A stretch of 64,000 nucleotides of DNA from Tubiluchus corallicola. Lineage: Eukaryota > Priapulida > Priapulimorpha > Priapulimorphida > Tubiluchidae. Both the position numbers and the translations under genes were made by a program. Positions 1-54,380 of the stretch are shown piece by piece (the stretch's first letter is position 1; each line of letters opens with the position of its first letter). Location of the stretch: NCBI GenBank assembly GCA_030141605.1, contig JAQGDQ010000080.1, positions 310,001 to 374,000 of the forward strand, given 5' to 3'. The notes under the pieces were generated by a model. It saw only the letters and a program-made list of their open reading frames with translations, was not told where the DNA came from and searched no databases.

Positions 1-2745
1 AATAATAATTGTTAATTTTAACTTTATTGCAAAAAAACTTTTATAAATGCACATTCTTCAGATAGTAACTTTGTCAACAATTAAGTCAAACACAAAAATT
101 GATAACCCCTTACGAAAAAATTCTGCAACAATACAGTTTTATTTACACTGTATTTTAACTTTAAATAAGCTTGATCCAGTACATAATTATCACGCTTATA
201 CTTACCTACTGTTTAAAGGCTGACTGGTATGTTATCGTTGCAGAAGGCTGTCTTTTATTCGAACTTCTTTCACGAGCGTTAGAATGGCTGCAGATCGAGG
301 TCTTTTAAATTTGTAATGGACATTAATTGTCACGAAATTACAATGTTTTCTTTTAGACGATCACAGCGATTTTTCTTTGGACCGAATCTCAGACAATTCG
401 CGAATAATACTGTTTTTGCTAACCTATTTCTAAACATGGGAATAATACAAAACGTCATATCGAATTTTCATCGATACACAAAACACTGTTTTCGTACGTG
501 TTTGTCTGCATCTGTGTTTTCGCTAAATCAGCAAGTTGTTTTAACACAAGAAAGTTCTTAATAAATGAAAAAATTCTTACAAATAGAGTTACATTCTTAT
601 AGGTTTCCAGTTCCTACAATTTCACAGTTTTTAAGCAAACATTTAAACATGTGCTAGAAGGAAATGTAAGAAGCATTTTTGTCTTTTGAATTACACCTGC
701 TCTGCTTTAGTTAGACACTTGATGAGATAGATTGTTTAATGCGATCAGTTCTTTCTTGTCTATGCAGAGTTATATCAACTCGATAAACATATAAAAAATT
801 TGATGTGAATCATGTGATAACATGTAAATTATTTCTTGATCATGTATTAAATTGAGTTGTTAAAATTGCTGTAAATAAATGAGAGCTGATAAAATTCTCA
901 CGCAAAAGACGCGAATCGTAAATTAATGACAAGTTCCTGATTAAACTGCTATGGCATCACATGCATGTGATAAATAGTGCAATAAAATTTTCAAATAAAA
1001 ACGCCTAGCGATTCTACGTCAAGGCAGATAGCAATAATAAAAGAAGAGAGAGGCACTCAACTGTTAGACCACAGCACACATATACAAAAATAAATTTAAT
1101 CGCGCAACGATTTACATGAACCGAGAACAGTTAAATCTCTGGACGAATTACTTTCAATTTATATTCAACTTCAATTAAGGGGCGTAACAATTTCTTAATG
1201 TGATTTGAACGTGTAGGCAGCCGCACATTACCGTAAACCATCAGCCAATTTTACAGCGGGCTTTCAAACAGGACCCTAATGTCAAAAATATTATTGAGGG
1301 CCTAAAGTTACAATTATTCAAATTTTGATACCAAATTTGAAAGACAGGAAATGTGAAATACAGCCTAGATTAGAATTAGGAGCCTCCTTATGAAGCGTCA
1401 CTTTATAGGCCAATCAGCCATTATTCTAAAATTTGGCTAATTTACAAATTAATCATAAAATAATGTATTATTGTAATGCAACAGTCATATAAAATTTACT
1501 GTAAGAATTATTGGATTCAATGAATTCCAGGTAGCAATTGATGCTATATTTATAAAAAATTGTTTTGTATTATTATAATGTAGAAAAGGTTTAATTAACA
1601 AACTCTTAATGTGAATTTAATTTTAATTACAGATTTGTCAGTTAAGAATGGTTTAGAATGATTGAACCAAAGCGTTCTGTTTTAAATACACCTAAAAAAT
1701 TAATCAGTGGCGTCACCTATTCAGGGATGTACCTCGGGCAGAAAAATTGTGGAGATTAGATTCAGAGAACACGTCGATCCTCTTGAGAACCGAAATGAGA
1801 ATCCCACAGGAATGAATCAGTAGACGATCAAATATTTTTAATTTTTTGCGGTGAATAACGACTCCAAACAATATTAATTTCATGCTATTTTATATGGTAT
1901 ACTACAAAATGAAGAAAAAACACAGCTAACAATATTATCAGATACATCTGAATATATAAGAAAATTCCTAAGTGCAGGCATCAGTTGAATTTCCTCCTGA
2001 CATCTTTATTTTTTACAGTCTAACTCCAATTTTAGTATAGTAAACGCAAGCCCTCTTTCTGAACTGTAGCCCAGTACGTACATGTTGTCATAGCAGCGCA
2101 TTGCCTCTGTGCATTTAGGATTTCACATGTATATGTGATGTGTTGCCCTGATTTCGAAGACAGTATTCATATTGTCGTGTAGGCAATTATAGGTACGATC
2201 TAAAACCACTATTATGCAGCTCCCCAGTTTGATACCTAATGGATATTATATTCTTAACTCGATAAAAAATTACCAGTAGAACATATTAAAGAAGTTTGGA
2301 GATCTATCACATCAAAGAAGCAATTTATTGAAGCACGTGTACACTTAATACATCAAGAGTGCTTTAGAAGAACATAAATGAGCAATAAAAACTGAAAAAA
2401 ATTGAGCCAGTATCACACAAATTTGAATTCTTTTTTCTTACTTTAAAGATACTGCTGCTAATTGACACTGAATTAACAGTGCAGAAAACAAGCAAGCATA
2501 CTTAAATTACAGTCTTATAATCCAAAATGTATAATCTTAAATTGCATGGCTGCACTTTATCAAATGTCAAACTGTAAAGAGCTAACAAAGAAGGATTGTC
2601 AGTACAAGATTAATAACCGGCCAATTAGAAAAATACATGCAAACAGCTTATCCTTAAACATAGCCTCTTATTTATAACAAAATTATACAAGAAAATATGT
2701 TTGCATACATTTATGTCTGACTTTTGGCACATATAATATTGATTC
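1..2745. other. Intergenic region, no supported gene
   Basis: The stretch is AT-rich with frequent stops in all frames. The longest open frame (316-561, plus) has no recognisable domain and its codon use looks like background. The only structured content I can support is the decayed PDCD2L exon copy at about 1805-2065, listed separately. No promoter or RNA gene is visible. Confidence 0.6.
1805..2065 (-). pseudogene. Decayed duplicate of PDCD2L exon 5 and its 3' intron
   Basis: About 200 bases here align, with many substitutions and small indels, to 3297-3570, which spans the end of PDCD2L exon 5 and the following intron. On the minus strand the copy still reads EIQLMPAL followed by NFL, as in the real exon (EIQLMPALVNFL). 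The upstream half is scrambled, and the splice donor that is G|GTAATA in the gene reads GATAATA here, so it could not be used. It lies about 700 bases beyond the PDCD2L stop in the same orientation, as expected for an old partial tandem duplication. I see no copy of the last exon beside it. Confidence 0.7.
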
Positions 2746-2777: not shown

Positions 2778-5700
2778 TCATGCAGTAATATTTGAAAGGA
2801 GCTTGTCATAAGGATCAGGTTGTAAGATAATGTGTTCTTCCTTGTAACAGTCATTCTCAGTCCAGCAGCTGCTTATACAAGTCAGTATCATCACAGTTCC
2901 AAATTCTATGGGCGTTCCTAAATAATGACAAAAAATTGTATAATAATAACATTATTGTGCATTTGAAACATAAAATTACTGAGCATTTTAAAAAACTTTT
3001 GGAAATAATGACAGTGTCGATATTTGGAATTAGGACTGAACTGGACATGGTATTCTATTTTGGTGGGTCCTTTTCAACTTGCTTTGCTTTGAGATGCTTG
3101 CTTTGAAAGAAAGGCATGTTGCAGTCATAGTTTGTACATGAAGGCAGGATAAGAATGATGTTTTTATGGTTGTTGAACTAGCAAAGTAGGACATTGTCAT
3201 TGTTTGTGAACTGCCTAAGTAACTGGTCACAGCAGTTGTATAGATGATTATTACAATTATATTTATATATCTTATGTCATTGCAGAACTATGAATTAGTA
3301 GACAATCAGAGGTTTATTCAATTTTTTGCAGTGAATAATGGCAGCAAACAATATTAATTTCTTCTCTATTTATGCCCAATATTACAAAATAAACATAGCT
3401 AATAATATTACCAGACACATCTGGATATTTAAGAAAATTCACAAGTGCAGGCATCAATTGAATTTCCACTTGGCACTTTGATCCGCAGCTATCACATACA
3501 GCAGCAAGCTTCTCAGAATCTTCTTTATTTGGATCACATATGAAGAGTGGATTTCCTTTCCAACTGTATCTGTGAACGTTGATCAAGACATTACATTCAA
3601 AAACCACATTGACTACAGCAAACAACAAATTTTTAAGCCTAGGAGAAAATTAAGTCATTTTACTAAAAATCTGATTTACTCTCAGAAAGATTGTCACATC
3701 TGCATAACTTGGATTAGATTAACATTTCTATTAACTCACATGAGTTAAGTATAAGGAAAATATGAGTGCCAGTACACAATAAAAGTTATAAGACTTGTAC
3801 TGACGTCCATCAACAGAGATAGTAGATAGGAGTGAAGTACAATTGACTACACACTATACACATTGACTATACTGCAACAAGCACAGTGAGCCGCATAAAT
3901 TTAAATACATTCTAAAACTTACTCTAGTATGATAATGTACCACTGCAGTTATGCAGATACATGTATATATAAAAACAAGAAATGACAAGTAAATAGTCAT
4001 TCAAAGTCATTCAAGGAGAGCACCCAGTCAAGCATCCACCATAATAAAATCTCCACCCACAGACTGATTTAGATCATGAAGTGGTCTAAAGATTATTAAA
4101 AGTCTTAAGGATGTTACTTCAGTTTTGTTAACACATGATGCAACATCCAGGAAAGAGAATAATAATAATGGCGCCATGTAATAATTTAGGTTGAAATAAA
4201 GTATGTTTTAATCTTTAAATGTGAAAGCAACCCTGCTGGCTGCTTACTTAACATCGAATCTTACATAATGAGTATTATAGTAGAGAATTTGTGTGTTGTT
4301 TATTGAACTTTCAAGTTTTTGGATGTGCTACTTTAGCAGAATTAGCATCAACAAAGCACCAAGGAAAATTGTGTCCACTCAGTGTATTCTAACTTAATAG
4401 CAGATTACTATAAATGATTATAGATTTTAGGTGTTTAGCATTTTTCGTGAGTATTTCATACCAGAGTATTTAGGATCAAAGACACAAACTTTGGTCAGTT
4501 TGCCTCAATATCAAAGACCTTATATTTTGAACCAGAGCTACTTTATAGCAAAACACCAAGTGAGGATCAGAGTGCATACTAGTAGAAGCAAACAACCGAC
4601 AGTGAATTATTGCTTACGCACGTGATATGGAATTCCTAATAAATGGCACAGTTCCCATCGAGAGCACATAGTGATCAAATAGAGATAATCATGTGCTGTT
4701 TACCAATAGCTAATGGATGGATCAGTTGCACACAAAAATGCGAATTTCAGCTAGTGAGTTCTAAACTTATAAAATTTCATACAACAGGATGTGTAATTCA
4801 GTAGACGATTACATGAATGTAAATGTTCCGGAGTATTATAAATTAAAGATAATTAGTCTTTATTACAAGTTCCTAATCCTAGTTGGCCGTAAATTCAATT
4901 AATTAGCGATCGCTATAACAAGCACCTATAGCTGAAATGAATAGTGGTAATCTGTAATTTCACAACTCATCGAAGAAACACTGTAATGGCACTCAGTAGG
5001 TATACACCACCAAAATAGGATAAGGCATCTTGTGGAGTAGGTCTAAAAAATAGGTTGGTGTAATTTTTATCAGCGAGCATCGCAGGTGTAAAATAACCGA
5101 TACACTGATTTCTTATTACTCCCAATATATGCTTATGTTAAGCATCAAGTTTCCTTAGTCATCCACTTTCAATTCATGTTAATTTGGAAACACGGAATGC
5201 TAAAATCATCAACCACTAATGCTACACTCACCAATGATCAATGGTGCACACAATTTCCACATAGTATTTTTACAGTTTGATGCAGAAATCCAGCACTTGC
5301 CATTATTATCACCAGTCTGATCATTTTTGATAACTTATGAAACAACGGCTTTGGCAAAGATCCAAAAATTTTAACATGACAGGAGAGAAACACGTGTAGT
5401 AAGATAACACATCTTAAATGCAGAAATAAAAAAATATTCTTGAGGTACAATATGGAATATGTGTAATAAAGATGCAGGTGGCTTATAATCATTATGCGTA
5501 AGAAAAAAAGTTGAAATTGATACCTAATGCACTGCTCAGAACAAAGCCGTATTCTTTTGAAAAATCTATGGGTGCTTCTGTCTTCATGCCTTGCTTGACC
5601 GGATTCATATAATTCAGCAGGGTTATCAGTTTTACTAAAACAAAATAAATGGAAATCTTCATAATTTCATTATTCAATGTTAAAATAAATTAGGGAAAAT

Positions 5701-8190
5701 AATATTGCATGTATGTCAATTTAAATTTTATTATTTAACTTGACAGTCAGTCATGATATTTTACATCAATATTGTACCTGAATGTGTCTAAAAATACTGA
5801 CAGATCTGTTTCTTCTTCTTTTTCATAAACCGTCAGAAGCTGTCTGATATGACTACCTTCATTCTTATTGACTTCTCTTTTTTCTGTAGGCTCTTCAATC
5901 ACAGTAACATGATAAGCTTGTAAGTATGAGCAACCAGACAACAAAGGTGTGGAATTAAGTTCTGATAAAAGCCCTGAATGTGGCACACTTTCTGGAATTA
6001 TATTTTTCTTTCTTGTGTGAGAAATGCTAGCCTCAGGACATTCTTCAACAATATTATTTTGCACATTTGCTGATGCACATTTCTTAACATGACAACTGTT
6101 GCTATGGTCTACAGACAAATCATTTAAATTGCAACAAAGTGCATTTGACATATATTCAGCTAATGGTTCGACACTGGAAGTGTCATCAGGAACACCCCAA
6201 TCATCAGCATTATCGATCCAATCTGATACTGCTTCAGAATCCACAGAAGCAAATGCACCGACTCCTAAAGAAGTCTGATTGGATGGGTTATCTAAACATT
6301 GACAACGAATAGCCTTCCACCTAAAAAAAATAAAACCCAAGACTTTAGCATAGAGTGGATAATTCGTGGCTTTTTGTAGTTATTTTCTTTCTGTCAGTAG
6401 CAGTTTTCTCTGTTCTATTTTGGCTGATAAACTACAAGTGACCTTTAAGAACAAGCTCAGTTATAGTCTGCTCAGATACTGATACAAGTTAAGCTGAAAT
6501 GTGATGGTAATACTTATATTTCAACATATATGTGCTGAATATGTTAATGGCATACACGCATGTCATCAATGGTATTGGATATGATTGTTACAACTACTAA
6601 CCTGCTAACATAAATAAGTTAAATTGCTTGAAACATTTAAGTAACCAAATTTTTCCAAAGCTACAAGGACTTCAAGATACTTATGGATGAAATTTAGTTT
6701 GACCACCATCTCGTCATATTCAGCATTGTCAAGATCAACATTATCAAGCCACAATGATATTCCATTAATTATAAACATAGTTCTTGAAGGCTAAATGATA
6801 AAAGACTGTTTTTTGCAGCACTTTGTTGCTGAAGAATGAACTGGGGATGGGCAAAATTTATTCACAGCAAATTTGGCCTAAAATATGTTTGTGTAACAGT
6901 ATAAAACAGACAATTTTTGTTTCAATGAACTACACAAATGCCCAGTAAAAATGCAAATTCACGTTGGTGCCAATTAAAAGTTAAAGAATTCATATTTACT
7001 ATAAAATCTTACCCTTGAGCATTCTTGTGGCAAGACTGAGACATACAAGCAAAGATGTATATAGTTCGATGATAATCAGAACCCTCTAATGGACAATAAA
7101 TTTGCACAACCAGTAGCAAAGGCTTGTTACAAAGAGGACAAATTGTCGTTACTGAATTAGACATCCATGCCTAAAGCATCACAAAAATGACTGAATTACG
7201 ATAGTTTTTCCATTTTGCAACCAGTTAACAAGTTCACTCATGTTTTTAATACTTTCATAATCAGCATAAACAAGAATATGAATGTGGAATTTCAAGACCG
7301 ACAAGAGGTCCAACAACACTTAGCCATGAAACAACATAGTTTTTTGTACTTTGTATAAGTACTTTTCCCATAAATTCGGCAGTATGACAAGGATGAATTT
7401 GGTAAAATGGCTTCAACAGGAATGGATGCTCTTGTTGTGTAACAAAAGAATGTTTATCAATCAAAGTAGATGAATTGGAAAACTGCCAAACATCAGCCAA
7501 AGGTAGCAAACTGCCATTTTGCTTCCATATATTAAAGTATAATACAGGCACATTGTAGCTCATACTGTATATTACATGATAATCAAATGTCAACATGGTT
7601 TGGTCAGTGCTCCTACAAAACACACTCAAATCTTCTTCATCAGAGAAGTCTTCTAACACAATGTCAGCTGCATTGTTACTTTGCACATTAAAACTTCTAC
7701 GAATTCTTTTGCTTATGAATCCAGCTGTGCCTCCAATTGTTTCCCACTTCCAAAAATCTGAAACCTTATTTGAATGACCAATTAATTCAAAACAATTCTG
7801 ACAGAATTCTTCCGATGTTAAAGTTGATGTCTTAGTGGTTAATGAAGCCATGATCGCAATAATCTTACAACAATCACCATACTAGCAAATTAAACAGTTT
7901 GAATGGCACATCTATTAACAGCTTCTAACAAATGTCACTTTCATCAAAAGAGTTTGCCACCAGAAGACACGCGGCGCACAAGAAATCTAAGCTGAATATA
8001 CAAACAAATAACTATCCATGATTTAACTCGCACTGCGAAAAAAGCACAGATTATTAAATTCGCACCTCTGTTTCAAGCAATACACATTTTTACTTACTGG
8101 ATTTCCTCCTATCTGATTTGTAGTGAAAGTAATACTTTCAAGCTCTGAAGTCGATATTTCGACGTCAGCCAAGCCAAGTAATTCAGACAT
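2778..8190 (-). CDS. PDCD2L: PDCD2L (programmed cell death 2-like), six exons
   Basis: The family acts as a chaperone/adaptor for 40S ribosomal protein uS5 and shuttles through CRM1 in late 40S export. Exons on the minus strand: 8190-8098, 7170-7013, 6320-5778, 5634-5524, 3569-3412, 2917-2778. All introns are GT-AG, phases agree, and the product is 400 residues (human about 358). Seen in the protein: N-terminal LLGL...IGGNP (res 5-31); the zinc-binding CPLC...VQIYCPLEGS...FAC segment (about 42-75) joining to GWKAIRCQCL; a long acidic low-complexity middle (about 95-250); then YSWKGNPLF (303-311), CDSCGS, QLMPALVNFL and EFGTVMILTC in the C-terminal PDCD2_C domain. Intron 1 holds the complete ATG10 gene. 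The start is the only ATG in frame before the conserved LLGL. Homology is clear; the middle exon is poorly conserved. Confidence 0.93.
7261..7851 (-). CDS. ATG10: ATG10, E2-like enzyme for ATG12-ATG5 conjugation, intronless
   Basis: ATG10 receives ATG12 from the E1-like ATG7 and transfers it to ATG5, a cytosolic step needed for autophagosome formation. The single open frame codes for 196 residues (human 220). Diagnostic motifs are FDYHVIYSMSYNVPVLYFN (res 89-107), the catalytic motif HPCHTAEFM with Cys155 as the predicted thioester cysteine, and SWLSVVGPLVGLEIP near the C-terminus. The N-terminal FWKWE segment (33-37) is also family-typical. The gene lies on the same strand as PDCD2L, wholly inside its intron 1: it starts 247 bases after the exon 1 donor and ends about 90 bases before exon 2. 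No intron, poly-A tract or target duplication is visible, so retrocopy origin is only a possibility. The frame is intact and all key residues are present, so it is probably functional. Confidence 0.92.
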   Translation of the reverse strand: MASLTTKTSTLTSEEFCQNCFELIGHSNKVSDFWKWETIGGTAGFISKRIRRSFNVQSNNAADIVLEDFSDEEDLSVFCRSTDQTMLTFDYHVIYSMSYNVPVLYFNIWKQNGSLLPLADVWQFSNSSTLIDKHSFVTQQEHPFLLKPFYQIHPCHTAEFMGKVLIQSTKNYVVSWLSVVGPLVGLEIPHSYSCLC

Positions 8191-8979
8191 TCTAACTTCT
8201 CGCGTATGTCTTATTCCTTCCGCAAAACTTGTGGCTGCTTAAATATTCATAATCAATAATGAATATCGAAGAACTCTGCACATTTGATAGTGTGGCCTTG
8301 CTAAATTGACTTGTTATAAAATCATCATTAGGGTGTCCATTACGTCTGCTGTAAACATTGAGCGGAGAGAATTCTAATATAAACGAAATCTGCAAAGAAT
8401 TATAAAATCACTGTAACAATAACATATACGTATATCATCATCATCGTAAGCCCATTAAGTCTATTGTAATATGTTATCGTTCTTACAAGCATAAGCGGAG
8501 ATCTTTGGGTAAGCGAATAATTGTCATTGAACCGCAGCACAGATTGTTGCAGTGACTACTTTATACAGTGAAACGTGTCTGCGGAAAATAAAATAAAAAA
8601 ATTTATAAACCTATATAAAAAAATAAAAGAACCTTGGACAAGAAAAATAAAAAGACGCCGTTTAAGATGGATCGGGTATGTGCTTTGACCTGATGACAGT
8701 GAAGATAAGTCTTCAACAAACCCATATAATCAGGCAAAAAACCTGCAGGAGGACAAAATTTAATGTTTACATAATGTTTGAACGAAAAAATGTAAATATT
8801 TCAGCACTGATCCTTTGCGATAAATGCACTTGTGACAATACAATAGTATTGGCATAGGGAAGTGAACAGAATCATATCCCTAGACCTATGATTCATTGGA
8901 TGATGATAGTGATGATGATGTAGCCAATCACTCAATGGTCTGAAGTCGAATAATTGTAATCACGCAGAGATGCAGAGAT
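8191..8979. other. PDCD2L upstream region, no gene seen
   Basis: This holds the presumed PDCD2L promoter, which would also serve ATG10 if the two are co-transcribed. I see no clear TATA box or initiator, and no coding frame with recognisable features. A short ATGATG-type low-complexity run lies near 8900-8920. Confidence 0.4.
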
Positions 8980-9383
8980 TAGGGGTGAGCATTGAATGTT
9001 CGAGTTCGAACGAGTTTTTTAGTTCGAATTCGATTCGAACCTAAAATTATAGATTCGAATAATTCAGCACTTCAGCCACAGGCATTTTTATCATTAAAAT
9101 GTTTGAAACGGCATGCAATTAGTACAATTTAGCTGCAGTTTCTCTGCAAATTTTTTAACAAACTAATAATGGTTTTACTGCAGAACAAAATCAAGTGATG
9201 TGCATAACTTTGTAAGACCACTCTTTACTACTGGTTCGAAAACTTGTTCGAAAATCTTTCAAACTCAATTAGAATTTGATTCGGATTCGATATACCGATA
9301 TTCGGTTTGATTCAAATTCGAAAGTCACAAATTCGATTCGATTCGATTCGAATTCGCTTTTTAATAGAGAATGCTCACCCCTA
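8980..9383. mobile_element. Non-autonomous hAT-type MITE, copy 1
   Basis: The element begins TAGGGGTGAGCATT and ends AATGCTCACCCCTA, perfect 14-base terminal inverted repeats. It is flanked by an 8-base target duplication that matches at 7 of 8 positions (gcagagat at 8972-8979, tcagagat at 9384-9391). TIR sequence and 8-bp duplication fit the hAT superfamily. Both ends carry ATTCGA-rich subterminal arrays, and the middle has no transposase frame. Related copies lie at 11210-11593 and about 49620-49882. Confidence 0.85.
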
Positions 9384-9391
9384 TCAGAGAT

Positions 9392-11209
9392 AGATTCAAG
9401 AACAAAACACAAAAACAAAAAGTTCAAAAAATGTAAAACCTATGATAACCAATGTTTTATTGTTCATTGTTTATACTGTTTATGGACAGTATGTTGTCCA
9501 TTCTGACATTAATACACCAATGAGAAAGTTCTGTCAGTTTGGAGTTCCATACAATAACTAACTGGGAGTGCATGGTCATGCACACACAACCACGCATGTT
9601 CAGCACACATCAGTACATCTCCTTCTCTATACAAGTTATATTTCACATAGTAACTACTATATATAATTAACTATGCAGTTATGCTACTTGAATTGCAAGA
9701 CATTGCCAGAAGGATATTTCTACAAAGTGTAAGTAACTTATGCACTAATAAAATAATGCACTGGAATCATAATAACAAATGCACATAAAATTCTTATTTT
9801 ACATGTGATCAGTCTTGCATATTTCTTGCAGCTTTCTGGTTTCTGCAAGTCAACGTCCAGTTAGGGGGTACGATATCTTTTGTTGTTGCATTACTTTTCT
9901 TTTGCTTTGGCTCGTGATGACGTACACATAGTAGAGTACAAAAGTGCTATGTAGATCAAACAGCTAGGGGTAAATAAGAAGGAAGTTTATTGAAGAGGAG
10001 ATCAAGAAAGCAATTTGATGATATAATGGGACACATCAGTATACATCTAAAATCAGCATAACCATCATAATCATTGTTTTGCATTCGAGAGCTAGTTAAT
10101 TATTACTTCTGCAATAATACTGTATACACGCCATGAGCTGCTATTTGAAATCTTTAGTGTTTATCAGCTTAAAGATTATAGTTTAAATCATGAGTACAAG
10201 TCATAGAGTTTTCACAGAGGTATCACAAATAAAAAGCTATGTAACCTGCTAAACATTCGTCGGCGAGCTCCATTGCTGTTCTTGATAATGTATTAGTGTT
10301 CCCATTAGACCAAAGCATCACAGAATCACTTGACAATCTATTAGGCTTTCAATATTATTTAAGTGTAGAAGGCCCGCACGTATTGCTCATAAGTCTGCAG
10401 TCTTGAGAGATATATGATCAAAGTCTCGAAAGAGTCAAACTCAAGTTCCGTTGACACATCTTGCAGATGTTTCACAAGCTTATACCTTTTGAATCCTGAT
10501 CATAGGTTTGTTACTGGATCATCTTAGTCTCTATTCTGTCATCCAGGATATAGCTTCCAATGTGTTAGCCACTAAGTCTGCGATATTGAAATCTGGTGAA
10601 TTTCCAAGCTATTAGATTTGCATTAAAATTGATGTGTGAAACGCATAAAGTTTGCACGCTAAAATTAACATTATGATACATTAATAATATTGGAATTTTA
10701 AAATAATTGTTTCTGCAATTCTTTAATGTAATAATAATTATTGTTCAAGTACTGTTGCACTTTGTATCTGTCTCCTCTAGCAAAATAAAATTATGTTTCA
10801 CCATTTATTGTAGATAATGATGGAGACGGCAGAAGGAAAGAAAATGCAGCAGGTATCACATGCTCATTTTCATTATCTTAATTACAAAAACATTTAATAG
10901 TGTATGTTTTTTCGCAAAAACGGTTCATTCTTAGTAAGAAGGAATTTCATTGTAGGTACTATAATGATTCTAATGTTTTCCGAGTACTGATTATGTGCAA
11001 AAGACGTGACTGATTAAGTCTTACAGCCAATGTAAATATCGAACAACCTATTGTCTTTTTTCCCACTACTTCCATTAACACATCCATCTTCCTTTCCTGC
11101 ATCATCTGTCTTTTCACCATGTTCTTTTTTGGTTCACATATTAGTGGGCGTATACAAGCTTTTGTTTTTTTACCACACTGCAGTACAATTTTTCTTTTAT
11201 GGTAACAAT
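9392..11209. other. Intergenic region, nothing supported
   Basis: AT-rich sequence without a recognisable gene. A short segment at 10815-10850 is bounded by AG and GT and could be a small exon, but nothing links it to a gene. The minus-strand open frame near 10959-11228 runs into the hAT end and shows no known domain. Confidence 0.4.
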
Positions 11210-11593
11210 TAGGGGTAAGCACCAACATCCGAATTTTTTCATAGTTCGATTTCGATTAGAACCTAAAATTATAGATGCGAATAATCTAGCACTTCAATTG
11301 TATATGTTCTTTCAGTATCATTGAAACATTTGAAGCGTCATGCAAGCGTAATTTACCTGCTATTGCTGTGCAATTTTTTTAAGCAAATTATTAGTGTTTT
11401 TATTGCAGAATAAAATCAAGGAATGTGTATGACCTTTGTGAAACTTCTTTTTACTAACAGTTTGAAAATTTATTCCAAAATCTTTAAAACTGAATTCGAT
11501 TTTCATTCAAAATCTCGAAATTCGGTATGATTCCAGCTTGAAAATCGCAAATTCGATACGAATTTACTTTCTGGCTGAAAATGCTCACCCCCA
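11210..11593. mobile_element. Non-autonomous hAT-type MITE, copy 2
   Basis: This is clearly related to the copy at 8980-9383 along its whole length, including the internal blocks beginning ACCTAAAATTATAGAT and ATTGCAGAATAAAATCAAG. Its ends are degraded (TAGGGGTAAGCA and TGCTCACCCCCA), and the flanking 8-mers gtaacaat and gtaatgag agree only partly. It is older than copy 1 and carries no coding capacity. Confidence 0.75.
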
Positions 11594-25621: not shown

Positions 25622-26470
25622 CTAATAGAGTACCAGCTTTTTGCACATAGTTGTCTCTCTTGTCAAGTCTCTGCTAACTGTTTTACCACACGTTTTTTCT
25701 CTCGCATTATGTATTTGTGTTATCTCACTAAAGTTGTCTCTCAAAGTGGAAGTGCCGCCTAGCATGTCTTGGTATGGTGAAGAAGCAAGGTCAATGCTGG
25801 TATGGGAATGGGTCAGATGTGTTAGTTTATGATAAACTGAAATGGTGTTGCGGAAGGGTTGGAATCCATATAGGTGAAATAGTACCTTATTATCCATAAT
25901 CGTTTCCTAGCTCGTTTGGATATTTCGTCAATGTGCTCATGTAAGAGACTGGTCAGTTAAAACACCCAAGTCTTTCTGTTTTGTTACTGCTATTATTGGA
26001 ACTGACTGATTTGTATCATTGTGCATATAGTAGCCAAGAGTTACATATACATCTTTCTCAAGATGTAGAACCTTTAACTTTTCCATGTTGAAGAGCACTT
26101 ACCATGTTTGTGACCATGAGTCTAATAAGTTAAGATCATTTGGAGTCTATGGTAGTCAATATTTGACTTCAGATCCTGTAGATTTTTGTATCATCAGCAA
26201 ACATTTTCACTGATGAATTTAAATTGTCTGATAGGGAGTTGATGAGCATAAGGAATGATATAGGCCTTAATACACTTCCCTGTGGCATTCCACTCCTGAC
26301 GGGTCTCCATGAAGATTTTTTAGAGTTGATTCGAACGTCTTTAAGAAAGTCTTCTATCCAGTGGTAGATGTTGCCAGAGATCCCATGTGCAGTAAGTTTT
26401 AACACAAGTTTTAACATGAGTTTTTTATGTGGAACTTTATTGAAAGCCTGCAAATACTTCAATAGAAGAC
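25622..26470 (-). mobile_element. LINE reverse-transcriptase fragment (broken)
   Basis: The minus-strand frame 26462-26169 encodes a non-LTR retrotransposon RT core: FNKVPHKKLMLKL, HGISGN, SSWRPVRSGMPQGSVL (fingers/palm) and the active-site FADDTK, the family form of YADD. Further down the same strand, frames interrupted by stops carry a piece reading KVLHL and KDLGVL, typical of the thumb region, to about 25930. The 25897-25622 frame may be its decayed tail. Clade is most like CR1/L2-type elements, by motif style only. Frameshifts and stops show it is dead. Confidence 0.85.
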
Positions 26471-27215
26471 TTCTTGCCGGTCATTTAAAGACTCGAGTAG
26501 GTGTAAAATGAGTGATGCTTACCCTGTCTTGAGGGCAGATTTCGTTTTTTAGAGTCTGTCTGCTTAAAGTCTACAGTAGACTTAACGTAGGCATGATGAT
26601 GATTTTATGTTTAGTTGCTTACCTTATAAATCTCTCTTAACTTCTGATGCCAGGTTTCTTTTTTTAGCATTCTGCCTGCCCATTGTCTGCAACAGATGTA
26701 GTGGGCATTTGATCGTGGTTTTTATACTCTTTAAATGTTTATAGCATACTACTAAGTACTATTACCGGTAAAGACAGTATTACTATTAAGCAGTAACTAA
26801 ATCCCTATAAGGCTTTCTATTTCGCACTTATATAATGCTGGGGACGCTGTGCATTGTACTAGAAATAGTCACTTAAGATACCAGATAGGGAAATCAAAGT
26901 TGAAGCGCTTAAATTAAAATGTATTATTTTTATTTGATTACTTCAAATACAAAATTGTGCAAGAGTGTTACGAATCGACAAATATGTAGATTTGTAAATT
27001 TAGATATCAAATGGTGTGGGTAGATTACGGCTTAGGTGACGTAAGAAATAAACAACCCAGGGGAAATAATGGCAATGTGCACAGAGAAGATAGACTGGAG
27101 AAAACGAACCAGTGTAAGGCTTTTTATTGAAAGGAGTCAGCCAATTGAAAGAAAATATGACAGCTTTGAATGAATTAGAAGTTGAGAAAAAATTGTAAAT
27201 TTCAAGTTAAATCAA

Positions 27216-47831: not shown

Positions 47832-48899
47832 TCAGTCTTTTTTAACAGCAACATTTAAAGCTTGTGAAATGTTTTTAACATGTTCCATAACTTTTTTAAA
47901 TTCAAAGTTAGCTATTCGTCTACCACACTTTTGAGTAAACTTGTCTGGATGCCAGCAAACCTGCTGCTCTCTAAGATAGTTCTTCTTGAGCTCGAGAGAA
48001 TCAATATTACATGTAAGAATTTCACTAATCTTATTCAGTTCACTACTATCCTGTAAAGGCAAGTCTTTTATGGTCACATTTGCATTTGAGTTAGGATCAA
48101 ATACTTTAGCACAGGCAGATGTGTATTGTAATTTCTTGCTTAATAAGCAATTTCTTTTTCTTAATAAAGTCATTCTTAACTGATACTCATCATGTTCTTT
48201 CTTCGACCTCGTCTGAAATTTCTCATAATTTTTTGTTTTTGCCTTCTTTGCTTCGAATTCACTTTCATCGTATTCAAATTTTCTTTTCTGACTATGTTTC
48301 TCACAATATTCATGACATATTCTATCTGCCCATTCGTCGTAAGTTTCAGCTGTGGATCCAGTGTTACCATGGAAATACTCATGAAAACAACTGCCCATTA
48401 TTTCACTGCTTTCATATGTTGCTTCACTCCACAGTTTTTCATGCCAGTTAGCATCAAAACCATCTGCAGTAGGAACTCTACAGGCACTGCTATCATAACT
48501 TCCTTCAAAAATTTTATTTCCAAATGGTTTGATCAACTGTCGTGGCGTTTCCCCATCATTATTTACACAATCAAGTAAATCTCTCGAAGCTATGAGCAGC
48601 AGCTTTACAACAGGAATGCCATTACTACTGGAATTTCCACCCAAGTTAGCTAAGTATTTTAAAGCTAAATGAAGGGCTATATTATGATTAGTATCACATT
48701 TGCTTGGATCTACGCCCACACTCAAAAAATACTCAGTACAATATTCACTGCCAGATCTTGCAGCTACATGCAGAACTGTTTCCTTGAATTTAAAACGCGC
48801 TGTGGGTAAATCTATTTTGTGTTTGGCAATATGTTGTTTCACTTTACAAAACTCGTCAGATTCGATGTATTTTTGTAGTTTTTTAAGCACTGACCTCAT
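47832..48899 (-). CDS. NFKBIL1: NFKBIL1 (NF-kappa-B inhibitor-like 1), intronless
   Basis: A nuclear ankyrin protein linked to NF-kB signalling and to mRNA processing in vertebrates. Single frame of 355 residues (human 381); an in-frame TGA four codons upstream fixes the ATG. Ankyrin-like repeats cover about 36-125 (TVLHVAARSG, DTNHNIALHLALKYL, NDGETPRQL). A divergent middle follows, then a charged, Lys/Glu-rich helical segment (about 200-260) with nuclear-localisation-like KRK and KKAK. The C-terminal signature is LREQQVCWHPDKFTQKCG (309-326), matching the family LRxxQxRWHPDKF, a J-domain-like HPDK. It lies upstream of DCAF4 in the same direction. Human NFKBIL1 has introns while this copy has none, yet it has no poly-A tail or decay. 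Confidence 0.92.
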   Translation of the reverse strand: MRSVLKKLQKYIESDEFCKVKQHIAKHKIDLPTARFKFKETVLHVAARSGSEYCTEYFLSVGVDPSKCDTNHNIALHLALKYLANLGGNSSSNGIPVVKLLLIASRDLLDCVNNDGETPRQLIKPFGNKIFEGSYDSSACRVPTADGFDANWHEKLWSEATYESSEIMGSCFHEYFHGNTGSTAETYDEWADRICHEYCEKHSQKRKFEYDESEFEAKKAKTKNYEKFQTRSKKEHDEYQLRMTLLRKRNCLLSKKLQYTSACAKVFDPNSNANVTIKDLPLQDSSELNKISEILTCNIDSLELKKNYLREQQVCWHPDKFTQKCGRRIANFEFKKVMEHVKNISQALNVAVKKD

Positions 48900-49619
48900 G
48901 TCTATGAATCAATATTAAAGTCAAAATTAGACGACCCTTTTTCAACATGGGAACCATACAGAGGTAATAACAGTTTGGAACTTGAGCGAGTGCAGTGTAG
49001 ATTAGCAGAATTTGAGTGTAATATATATAATAGAGATGCTAGCGTAACATCTACGTTAGGTTCTCTCGAGTGGCCAAGCTTAGAACAGCGACGTACTTAA
49101 AAAATGACTCAAATCACAAAACTCACAGAGGAAAAATGTCGCGGAAACGCGGAAAATCTTTACTTATTTGGTTCGGATAACTTTTATTTTTGTACTACAT
49201 TTGTTGCCAAAGAGCTACGATGTAGTAGTAAAAATTTTATTTGTTGTCGAAATATTTCGAAACACAACGTTAGCTGATGGTTATTTTCTGGCTGATAAAA
49301 AATAAAACGAAATAAAAAAAATATTGCTGCAGAGTTTCATTAACCTTTGGTAATCCTAAAAATGACACACAATCACAACTCAAGAAAAAAGTCGCGGAAA
49401 CTCGGAAAATCTTTACTTTGGGTGTACAATATATCCTGCAGGGATCATTTTTGTATGTTCAAATTCATTTGGAATGCTCGATGCTCACCTCTACTGTATG
49501 TATAAAAAGTTATCGGATTCTAACCTCTTCAACTATATGTACACTCTCTATATACTTACATAATTACATGCTCTATACATATATACGTATGCCTTCTCTA
49601 TATGATAGTATAACAGGAT
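48900..49619. other. NFKBIL1 upstream region with a ~65-bp direct repeat
   Basis: No gene supported. A block at 49097-49171 (GTCGCGGAAACGCGGAAAAT core) recurs at 49356-49421 (GTCGCGGAAACTCGGAAAAT core). The segment at 49478-49492 (GATGCTCACCTCTA) resembles a hAT MITE end and may be part of a broken copy. Confidence 0.5.
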
Positions 49620-53171: not shown

Positions 53172-54380
53172 TTAAGCATTTTTAGCATTGTGCAGTTCAG
53201 TTTCTGTTAATAATGGTAAGACAGCCAACAATTCAGATATCCCATCATGTATGGTGAGAGTTGACCTAAAACCTAACTTTTGTATCGCTGCATAACAAAC
53301 CTCATAATTACGTTTATCTTTATCCTCTCCATGGTCTGACTCATTAATAACACACTGTGGCACCATTTCCTGGATGATACATGCCACCTCATATTTGGTC
53401 ATGTTCAGACGCTCATCTCCCACATTAAATGACCTTCCCGCCATCTGTGAGTAATTTTGCAATGCAAAGACAAATGCTCTTGCAGCATCTTTGACGTGCA
53501 AGAATGTACGCCGAAATCCCCCTTCATATATATCAAAATGTTTTGCAGTCAAAGCTTTATACGTTAAATCATTGACCAAAAGATCCAGCCGAAGACGGGG
53601 CGACAGTCCAAATACAGTTGCCAATCGAAGTGCTACTCCTCCGTGAGCCAGCACATTCTTTTCTGCATTAGCTTTTGTCTTCCCATACAAAGTTAATGGG
53701 CATATTTCAGTTTGCTCAGTGCAAATTCCTGACACAGAACCATAACACGATCCAGTGGATGCATACACAAGTGCTTGGTCAGGCTTCATGTTTTCAATTA
53801 AAATCCCTGTACCTTGTTCGTTAACCTGTTTAGCTCGTTCAGGGTTGATTTCACAGGCAGGAAAACCAACAACTGCAGCCAAGTGAATTACCGCATCACA
53901 GTTAAAAAGTATATTTCCTAACTGTTTCGCATTACATATATCTCCTTTAACTAAATGAAGTCTTGGATGATTGCTTATATGCAGCAGTGATGATATTCCA
54001 TACAAGAACAAATCATACACAGTAACTTTATATCCTATATCGAGGAGCATTGGAACTAAAGTAGATCCTAGATATCCAGCACCTCCAGTTACTAAAACAT
54101 GAACAGGAGCTATAACCTTATCCCTTGTATGATAAGAACTTGACAGAATTCCAGTTTTTTTTTGACAAGTTTCACTATTTGTTGTGCAATTACAATAATT
54201 TGCACAATTACTAACACAGTTAACATAATAACCACCATTGCAGAGAATTTCCCTATCACTGCTATCAATACAGCTTGTGTTATCCCAATCAGTCATTTTT
54301 TCTTTACGATGCATATGATTATTATGACTAGTTTTAGGTATTGAGCAATAGAATCTACCCGGCTTTGCAAAGTAGTCCAT
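53172..54380 (-). CDS. NAD-dependent epimerase/dehydratase (extended SDR), intronless, Cys-rich N-terminus
   Basis: An extended short-chain dehydrogenase acting on nucleotide-sugar-type substrates; the exact substrate is unknown. The 402-residue frame has the Rossmann motif TGGAGYLG (98-105), KGDI (145-148), the HLAAVVG strand (166-172), catalytic ASTG (207-210) and YGKTK (Tyr232, Lys236), [14 protein letters not shown] and FNVGDE (318-323). These active-site elements are complete, so activity is likely. The [13 protein letters not shown] pattern is closest in style to bacterial and archaeal WcaG-type epimerases. Residues 1-90 precede the fold and carry clustered cysteines (47, 55, 59, 63, 65, 72) that the family lacks. 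A CAG acceptor-like site sits 5 bases before the ATG, allowing a 5' UTR intron. Met29 is an alternative start. There are no coding introns, unlike most neighbours. Confidence 0.88.

Follow-up and report, generated by a model that had tools for sequence, protein, structure and literature searches.

A complete, single-exon ATG10 gene nested on the same strand within the first intron of PDCD2L in the priapulid Tubiluchus corallicola

The host gene and its guest

In the genome of Tubiluchus corallicola, intron 1 of a complete PDCD2L gene houses an intact and intronless ATG10, the only one found in the assembly. Both lie on the minus strand of the 64,000-nucleotide stretch of contig JAQGDQ010000080.1 analysed here (hereafter the window, to which positions refer), and the interval that the original prediction had placed between the first two exons of PDCD2L, 7171-8097, equals intron 1 base for base. 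Exon reconstruction gives PDCD2L six coding exons separated by introns of 927, 692, 143, 1954 and 494 nt, all of them GT-AG, and the joined frame runs for 400 amino acids without an internal stop. The two genes are laid out as follows:

8190-8098, minus: PDCD2L exon 1 (residues 1-31), with the ATG at 8190 and the donor CCA/gtaagt
8097-7171, minus: PDCD2L intron 1, the host intron, 927 nt, with the acceptor ctttag/GCA, followed by exon 2 at 7170
7851-7261, minus: ATG10 single-exon coding sequence, 196 amino acids, with the ATG at 7851 and TGA at 7263-7261 (PF03987 match)
7389-7387, minus: codon of the catalytic Cys155 of ATG10 (HPC motif), from alignment with PDB chains
7170-7013, minus: PDCD2L exon 2 (gene reconstruction and genome protein search)
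6320-5778, minus: PDCD2L exon 3 (gene reconstruction and genome protein search)
5634-5524, minus: PDCD2L exon 4 (gene reconstruction and genome protein search)
3569-3412, minus: PDCD2L exon 5 (PF04194 profile match, reconstruction and genome protein search)
2917-2778, minus: PDCD2L exon 6 with the stop (gene reconstruction and genome protein search)

By itself the exon 5 frame matches the PDCD2_C profile (PF04194) with 44.5 bits, whereas the joined PDCD2L reaches 90 bits and covers 110 of 111 positions. The junction of exons 1 and 2 reads GGNP/AW and aligns with GGKPAW of PDCD2, a paralogue encoded without interruption on contig C698, and the BLASTP alignment of the two proteins (24% identity, E 4e-22) begins at residue 25, within exon 1, and runs across this junction; thus, exon 1 belongs to PDCD2L, and the suspicion that it might come from another gene can be laid aside. 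The PDCD2_C domain, the GGxPxW start motif (here GGNPAW) and the presence of a separate PDCD2 on C698 together identify the gene as PDCD2L. PDCD2 carries an extra zinc finger that is absent from PDCD2L. When the protein was compared with the whole genome at E<=1, nine matches came back, namely the six exons of the gene itself, two places in PDCD2 and one decayed copy of exon 5, and so no second PDCD2L was found at this threshold; nor did the protein have a PDB sequence match at E<=1. The PDCD2 paralogue (C698:423956-424273 and around) is a single uninterrupted frame of 368 codons as against the six exons of PDCD2L. The decayed copy is a partial duplicate of the end of exon 5 and the downstream intron, in which window positions 1837-2009 correspond to 3317-3482 (83% over 95 nt and 75% over 77 nt) with a stop inside its protein match.

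The guest frame matches PF03987, the catalytic profile common to ATG3 and ATG10, at E 6e-39, far beyond chance, and across profile positions 1-192 of 193. It thus possesses an Autophagy_act_C domain with the catalytic HPC cysteine, and this motif, named in the original prediction, is borne out by the alignment of Cys155 with the PDB chains of ATG10 (4gsk_Y) and ATG3. The PDB sequence scores fail to separate the two families (best ATG3 22.4 bits, ATG10 20.4 bits). Contig C138 has a separate, multi-exon ATG3 whose exon text agrees with chain 8fkm_A of ATG3 in the PDB and contains an acidic insert that the nested protein lacks; by elimination, therefore, the nested frame is ATG10. Its C-terminus, NYVVSWLS...GPLVGL, is likewise one that we take to be ATG10-like. 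The earlier description of a full-length fold holds as far as profile coverage goes, whereas a single-sequence AlphaFold prediction of the frame (mean pLDDT 34.0, pTM 0.30) is unusable and lends it no support.

ATG10 (7851-7261) thus lies wholly within PDCD2L intron 1 (8097-7171) on the same strand, with 246 nt of intron before its ATG and 90 nt from its stop to exon 2, and both members of the pair are intact, with frames of 196 and 400 amino acids that lack internal stops and match their domains. The profile matches and the gene reconstruction thereby agree with the predicted identities, strand, completeness and intronlessness of the two genes. To have called same-strand nesting unusual was an overstatement: the same-strand share of simple nested pairs is given as 76 of 296 in human and 55 of 248 in mouse (PMC8467205), and in Drosophila as 727 of 1,651 nested genes (PMC3890989). 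It is a minority but common arrangement, to which the PDCD2L/ATG10 pair adds a real case of a known type.

Copy number, function and origin of the nested ATG10

The genome searched is a draft assembly of 343.5 Mb in 2344 contigs, and the searches proceeded exon by exon, such that short exons could be missed. With the ATG10 protein as the query (E<=10), the assembly yielded one match from one candidate, the nested copy itself, and with the PF03987 profile five places from seven candidates, namely the nested ATG10 and four pieces of the ATG3 on C138. Hence, neither the protein search with E up to 10 nor the Pfam profile search of the whole assembly found a second ATG10, intron-bearing or otherwise; the profile search was sensitive enough to recover ATG3 pieces of 29-50 profile positions. 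Of the partner genes, ATG12 is present (profile positions 2-49 of 87, its last exons being read by eye), with CFGSDGRLVLHYCKSQAWG as the last residues before its stop, and ATG5 is represented by profile positions 46-81 of 81. The C-terminal glycine of ATG12 is kept, from which covalent conjugation is still to be expected, and this glycine, together with the presence of ATG5, the intact frame of the nested ATG10 and its being the sole copy found, suggests that it is probably a working enzyme, i.e., a predicted E2 that transfers ATG12 to ATG5.

These observations bear on the reading that the nested ATG10 is silent or dead, with the real gene elsewhere or in unassembled DNA, or that an assembly artefact has joined two genes. 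It draws on the short exons that an exon-by-exon search may miss and on the draft state of an assembly in 2344 contigs. Against it stand the intact frame with its near-complete domain, the absence of any other ATG10 from searches that did recover short ATG3 pieces, the retention of ATG12 and ATG5, and a CpG depletion in ATG10 that equals that of the host body (see below). The window is also devoid of N, which speaks against the assembly error considered at the outset. We regard this reading as very improbable.

As to how the gene came to lie in the intron, an ATG10 cDNA would have been retroposed into PDCD2L long ago and the parent gene later lost, i.e., a retrogene would have replaced its own source. 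Retroposition is attractive in that it explains both the move of ATG10 and its lack of introns, and what is found is indeed an intronless sole copy, with the proviso that short exons of a second one could be missed. The hallmarks of the process were sought around the gene: no target-site duplication was found, the longest word common to the flanks being 8 nt, a length reached by 84 of 200 shuffles, and no poly(A) tract was found, A runs in the 3' part reaching 5 at most. Target-site repeats and poly(A) tracts are erased in old insertions. Other uninterrupted genes, i.e., PDCD2 and two further frames in the window, make intronlessness by itself weak evidence for retroposition. The original suggestion of retroposition thus keeps its footing in the intronless, solitary state of the gene and lacks these two hallmarks; retroposition with parent loss is plausible but unproven, and we class ATG10 as a possible retrogene, no more.

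The two further frames, both on the minus strand, are one of 358 amino acids at 47832-48908 with ankyrin-repeat matches, presumably NFKBIL1, and one of 402 amino acids at 53172-54380 for an NAD-dependent epimerase (PF01370, E 8.8e-33). A reverse transcriptase fragment (RVT_1, E 2e-11) at 26169-26480 on the minus strand indicates that retroelements occur near the PDCD2L/ATG10 locus. A 404-bp element (8980-9383), some 0.8 kb 5' of PDCD2L exon 1, has TAGGGGTGAGCATT as its inverted ends and is flanked by 8-bp words that agree at seven of eight bases; we take it to be a hAT-type MITE-like element, and a related copy lies at ~11210-11591. In the genome at large, telomere-like arrays were counted as 63 forward and 45 reverse for TTAGGG (control 0/0) and as 74 and 196 for TTAGG (control 38/79), while a search for COX1 gave no match.

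Transcription of two genes from one strand

The sequence around ATG10 offers several candidate regulatory features:

7852-8450, minus: CpG-retaining zone (CpG observed/expected 1.06) spanning the PDCD2L 5' end, exon 1 and the ATG10 5' flank; putative shared promoter zone
7852-8097, minus: ATG10 5' flank, 246 nt (CpG observed/expected 1.01); putative promoter or 5' UTR
7991-8033, minus: two acceptor-like sites 5' of ATG10, the first bases after the AG being 8032 and 7991
7863-7868, minus: donor-like GTAAGA with a poor exon side (GTT), 12-17 nt before the ATG10 start
7245-7250, minus: ATTAAA just 3' of the ATG10 stop, a candidate poly(A) signal for ATG10

The CpG observed/expected ratio is 0.86 in exon 1 and 1.24 at 8191-8450; the two gene bodies are lower, the ATG10 frame standing at 0.22-0.23 and PDCD2L exons 2-6 at 0.32. 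TpG plus CpA is raised in both bodies (1.5 in ATG10, 1.4 in PDCD2L) and already stands at 1.27 in the ATG10 5' flank. This pattern points to one promoter-like zone for both genes, whose bodies would both be methylated in the germline. The contrast is in itself unexceptional: of 1269 windows, 74 reach the CpG level of 7852-8450 and 132 fall to that of the ATG10 frame. Moreover, since the CpG-rich state continues further upstream (1.17 at 8451-9400), it may mark just the edge of gene-body methylation.

From this anatomy a mechanism can be proposed in which the point where transcription starts would select the protein. One open promoter zone, ~7852-8450, would serve both PDCD2L and ATG10. A transcript starting upstream of exon 1 would carry the gtaagt donor of that exon, and U1 bound there would silence the intronic ATG10 poly(A) signal, such that the 927-nt intron, ATG10 included, would be spliced out to give the PDCD2L mRNA. 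A transcript starting within the 246 nt of intron that precede the ATG10 frame would be without the exon 1 donor and would use the poly(A) signal that follows the ATG10 stop, yielding a short, unspliced ATG10 mRNA. The position of the start site relative to base 8097 would thus decide which protein is made. There are descriptions in the literature of intronic poly(A) sites being silenced in a U1-dependent manner, and the report on same-strand nested pairs in Drosophila describes a nested poly(A) signal that is ignored by the host transcript and used by the nested one, and whose use is restored when the 5' splice site is deleted (PMC3890989). At the present locus, the candidate ATTAAA has an estimated chance expectation of ~0.2 and is weak by itself in such AT-rich DNA. 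The donor-like GTAAGA at 7868 counts against the mechanism, for transcripts started in the intron would then not be free of donor-like words, and this one would have to stay unused. Taken together with an origin of ATG10 by retrogene replacement, this choice of start site is the best explanation of the locus, and we hold the combination with about even confidence.

The two acceptor-like sites would fit a different arrangement, of the CPNE1/RBM12 type, in which every transcript comes from a single promoter lying 5' of exon 1. PDCD2L would result when exon 1 is joined to exon 2, and the ATG10 mRNA when exon 1 is spliced to the acceptor at 8032 or 7991, or else when the intron is retained, with cleavage after ATG10. 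On a rough matrix, the site at 8032 ranks in the top 1.05% and that at 7991 in the top 1.6% of the AGs in the window, and they outscore four and three of the five PDCD2L acceptors, respectively. Of the 13 AGs in the ATG10 flank, 5 were scored. The weight of these ranks is lessened by the roughness of the matrix and by the sites having been picked after the fact. Same-strand pairs with common 5' exons do exist (PMC2568002), and transcripts of TXNDC12 are reported to use acceptors upstream of the nested KTI12; yet the same source treats such junction products as by-products of interference (PMC3192792). By that example, exon 1-acceptor junctions may occur in RNA without being a productive route to ATG10. 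A further difficulty is that the PDCD2L start codon lies in exon 1, so that ATG10 would be preceded by 37 or 46 codons of an upstream frame. This sharing of the first exon is the main rival to the proposed mechanism, and in our estimation a rather unlikely one. Fusion of exon 1 to ATG10 was also considered and discarded as a candidate: among the five scored acceptors only that at 7881 is in frame (giving 237 amino acids), and it is equalled or bettered by 17.6% of the AGs in the window.

The same flank sites might also be accommodated by an operon-like unit with read-through, in which ATG10 and PDCD2L exons 2-6 additionally share one transcript and ATG10 is either freed by trans-splicing to a 5' flank acceptor or is the first frame to be translated from a bicistronic mRNA. 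Were the animal to have spliced-leader trans-splicing, the acceptor-like sites would need no upstream donor, and there are just 90 nt between the ATG10 stop and PDCD2L exon 2. However, read-through from the intron would omit exon 1, which PDCD2L needs for its GGNP motif, and we consider such a unit improbable. Lastly, the pair may be conceived as one regulated switch, in which a common promoter zone feeds the production of a factor for ribosome assembly as well as an enzyme of autophagy, and falling U1 or splicing capacity, e.g., under starvation, shifts the balance from ribosome production to autophagy. Its lever would be exon 1-exon 2 splicing set against 3' end formation within the intron, in which an in-frame fusion of exon 1 to ATG10 via 7881 might also take part. 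We deem this switch decidedly improbable.

Parallels in other genomes and significance

No report of the PDCD2L-ATG10 nesting was found in the full-text literature, nor any of ATG10 as a retrogene, among the matches listed, and those on ATG10 gene structure are by title plant studies. A single paper was found to contain the names of both PDCD2L and ATG10. The VAChT and ChAT genes of the cholinergic locus lie on the same strand. A parallel may be struck with this classic precedent, in which intron 1 of ChAT contains the entire VAChT coding sequence as a single exon; however, those genes serve one pathway and their nesting is described as conserved in nematode, fly and mammals, whereas ATG10 and PDCD2L are without an obvious joint function (PMC3053374). 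Closest to the proposed mechanism are the Drosophila pairs ytr-eIF6 and xl6-nop5, where the guest likewise sits in a host intron and the host must ignore the guest poly(A) signal that the guest itself uses. These are other genes in another animal, and there the mechanism is shown by RNA data, while for the PDCD2L/ATG10 pair it is proposed from anatomy (PMC3890989). CPNE1 and RBM12 resemble the pair in being same-strand genes for unrelated proteins with starts close together, but they have common non-coding 5' exons, whereas PDCD2L exon 1 is coding and its sharing with ATG10 just a candidate (PMC2568002).

Further host-guest pairs illustrate what such an arrangement can entail: in TXNDC12/KTI12 (PMC3192792) and H13/Mcts2 (PMC13309782), interference via exonization, intron retention or intronic polyadenylation is reported. 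KTI12 is similarly a single-exon gene in tandem with its host, although it sits in intron 2 (PMC3192792), and Mcts2 differs in being imprinted (PMC13309782). In those two systems the consequences have been measured. With regard to origin, the nearest likeness is the retrogene replacement of SYCP1 in amphioxus, where a single-coding-exon gene is again the only copy left. AmphiSYCP1 is not intronic but neighbours another gene and draws on that gene's bidirectional promoter, and the loss of its parent rests on comparison with other animals, while that of an ATG10 parent is a supposition from one genome (PMC5803294).

Should expression be confirmed, the pair would offer a small natural system in which to examine how two housekeeping genes share a strand, and it would allow the start site relative to a single 5' splice site to be tested as the selector of the protein that is made. 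If relatives of this priapulid have an intron-bearing ATG10 elsewhere, then the locus would represent a core autophagy gene that has been replaced by its own retrocopy.
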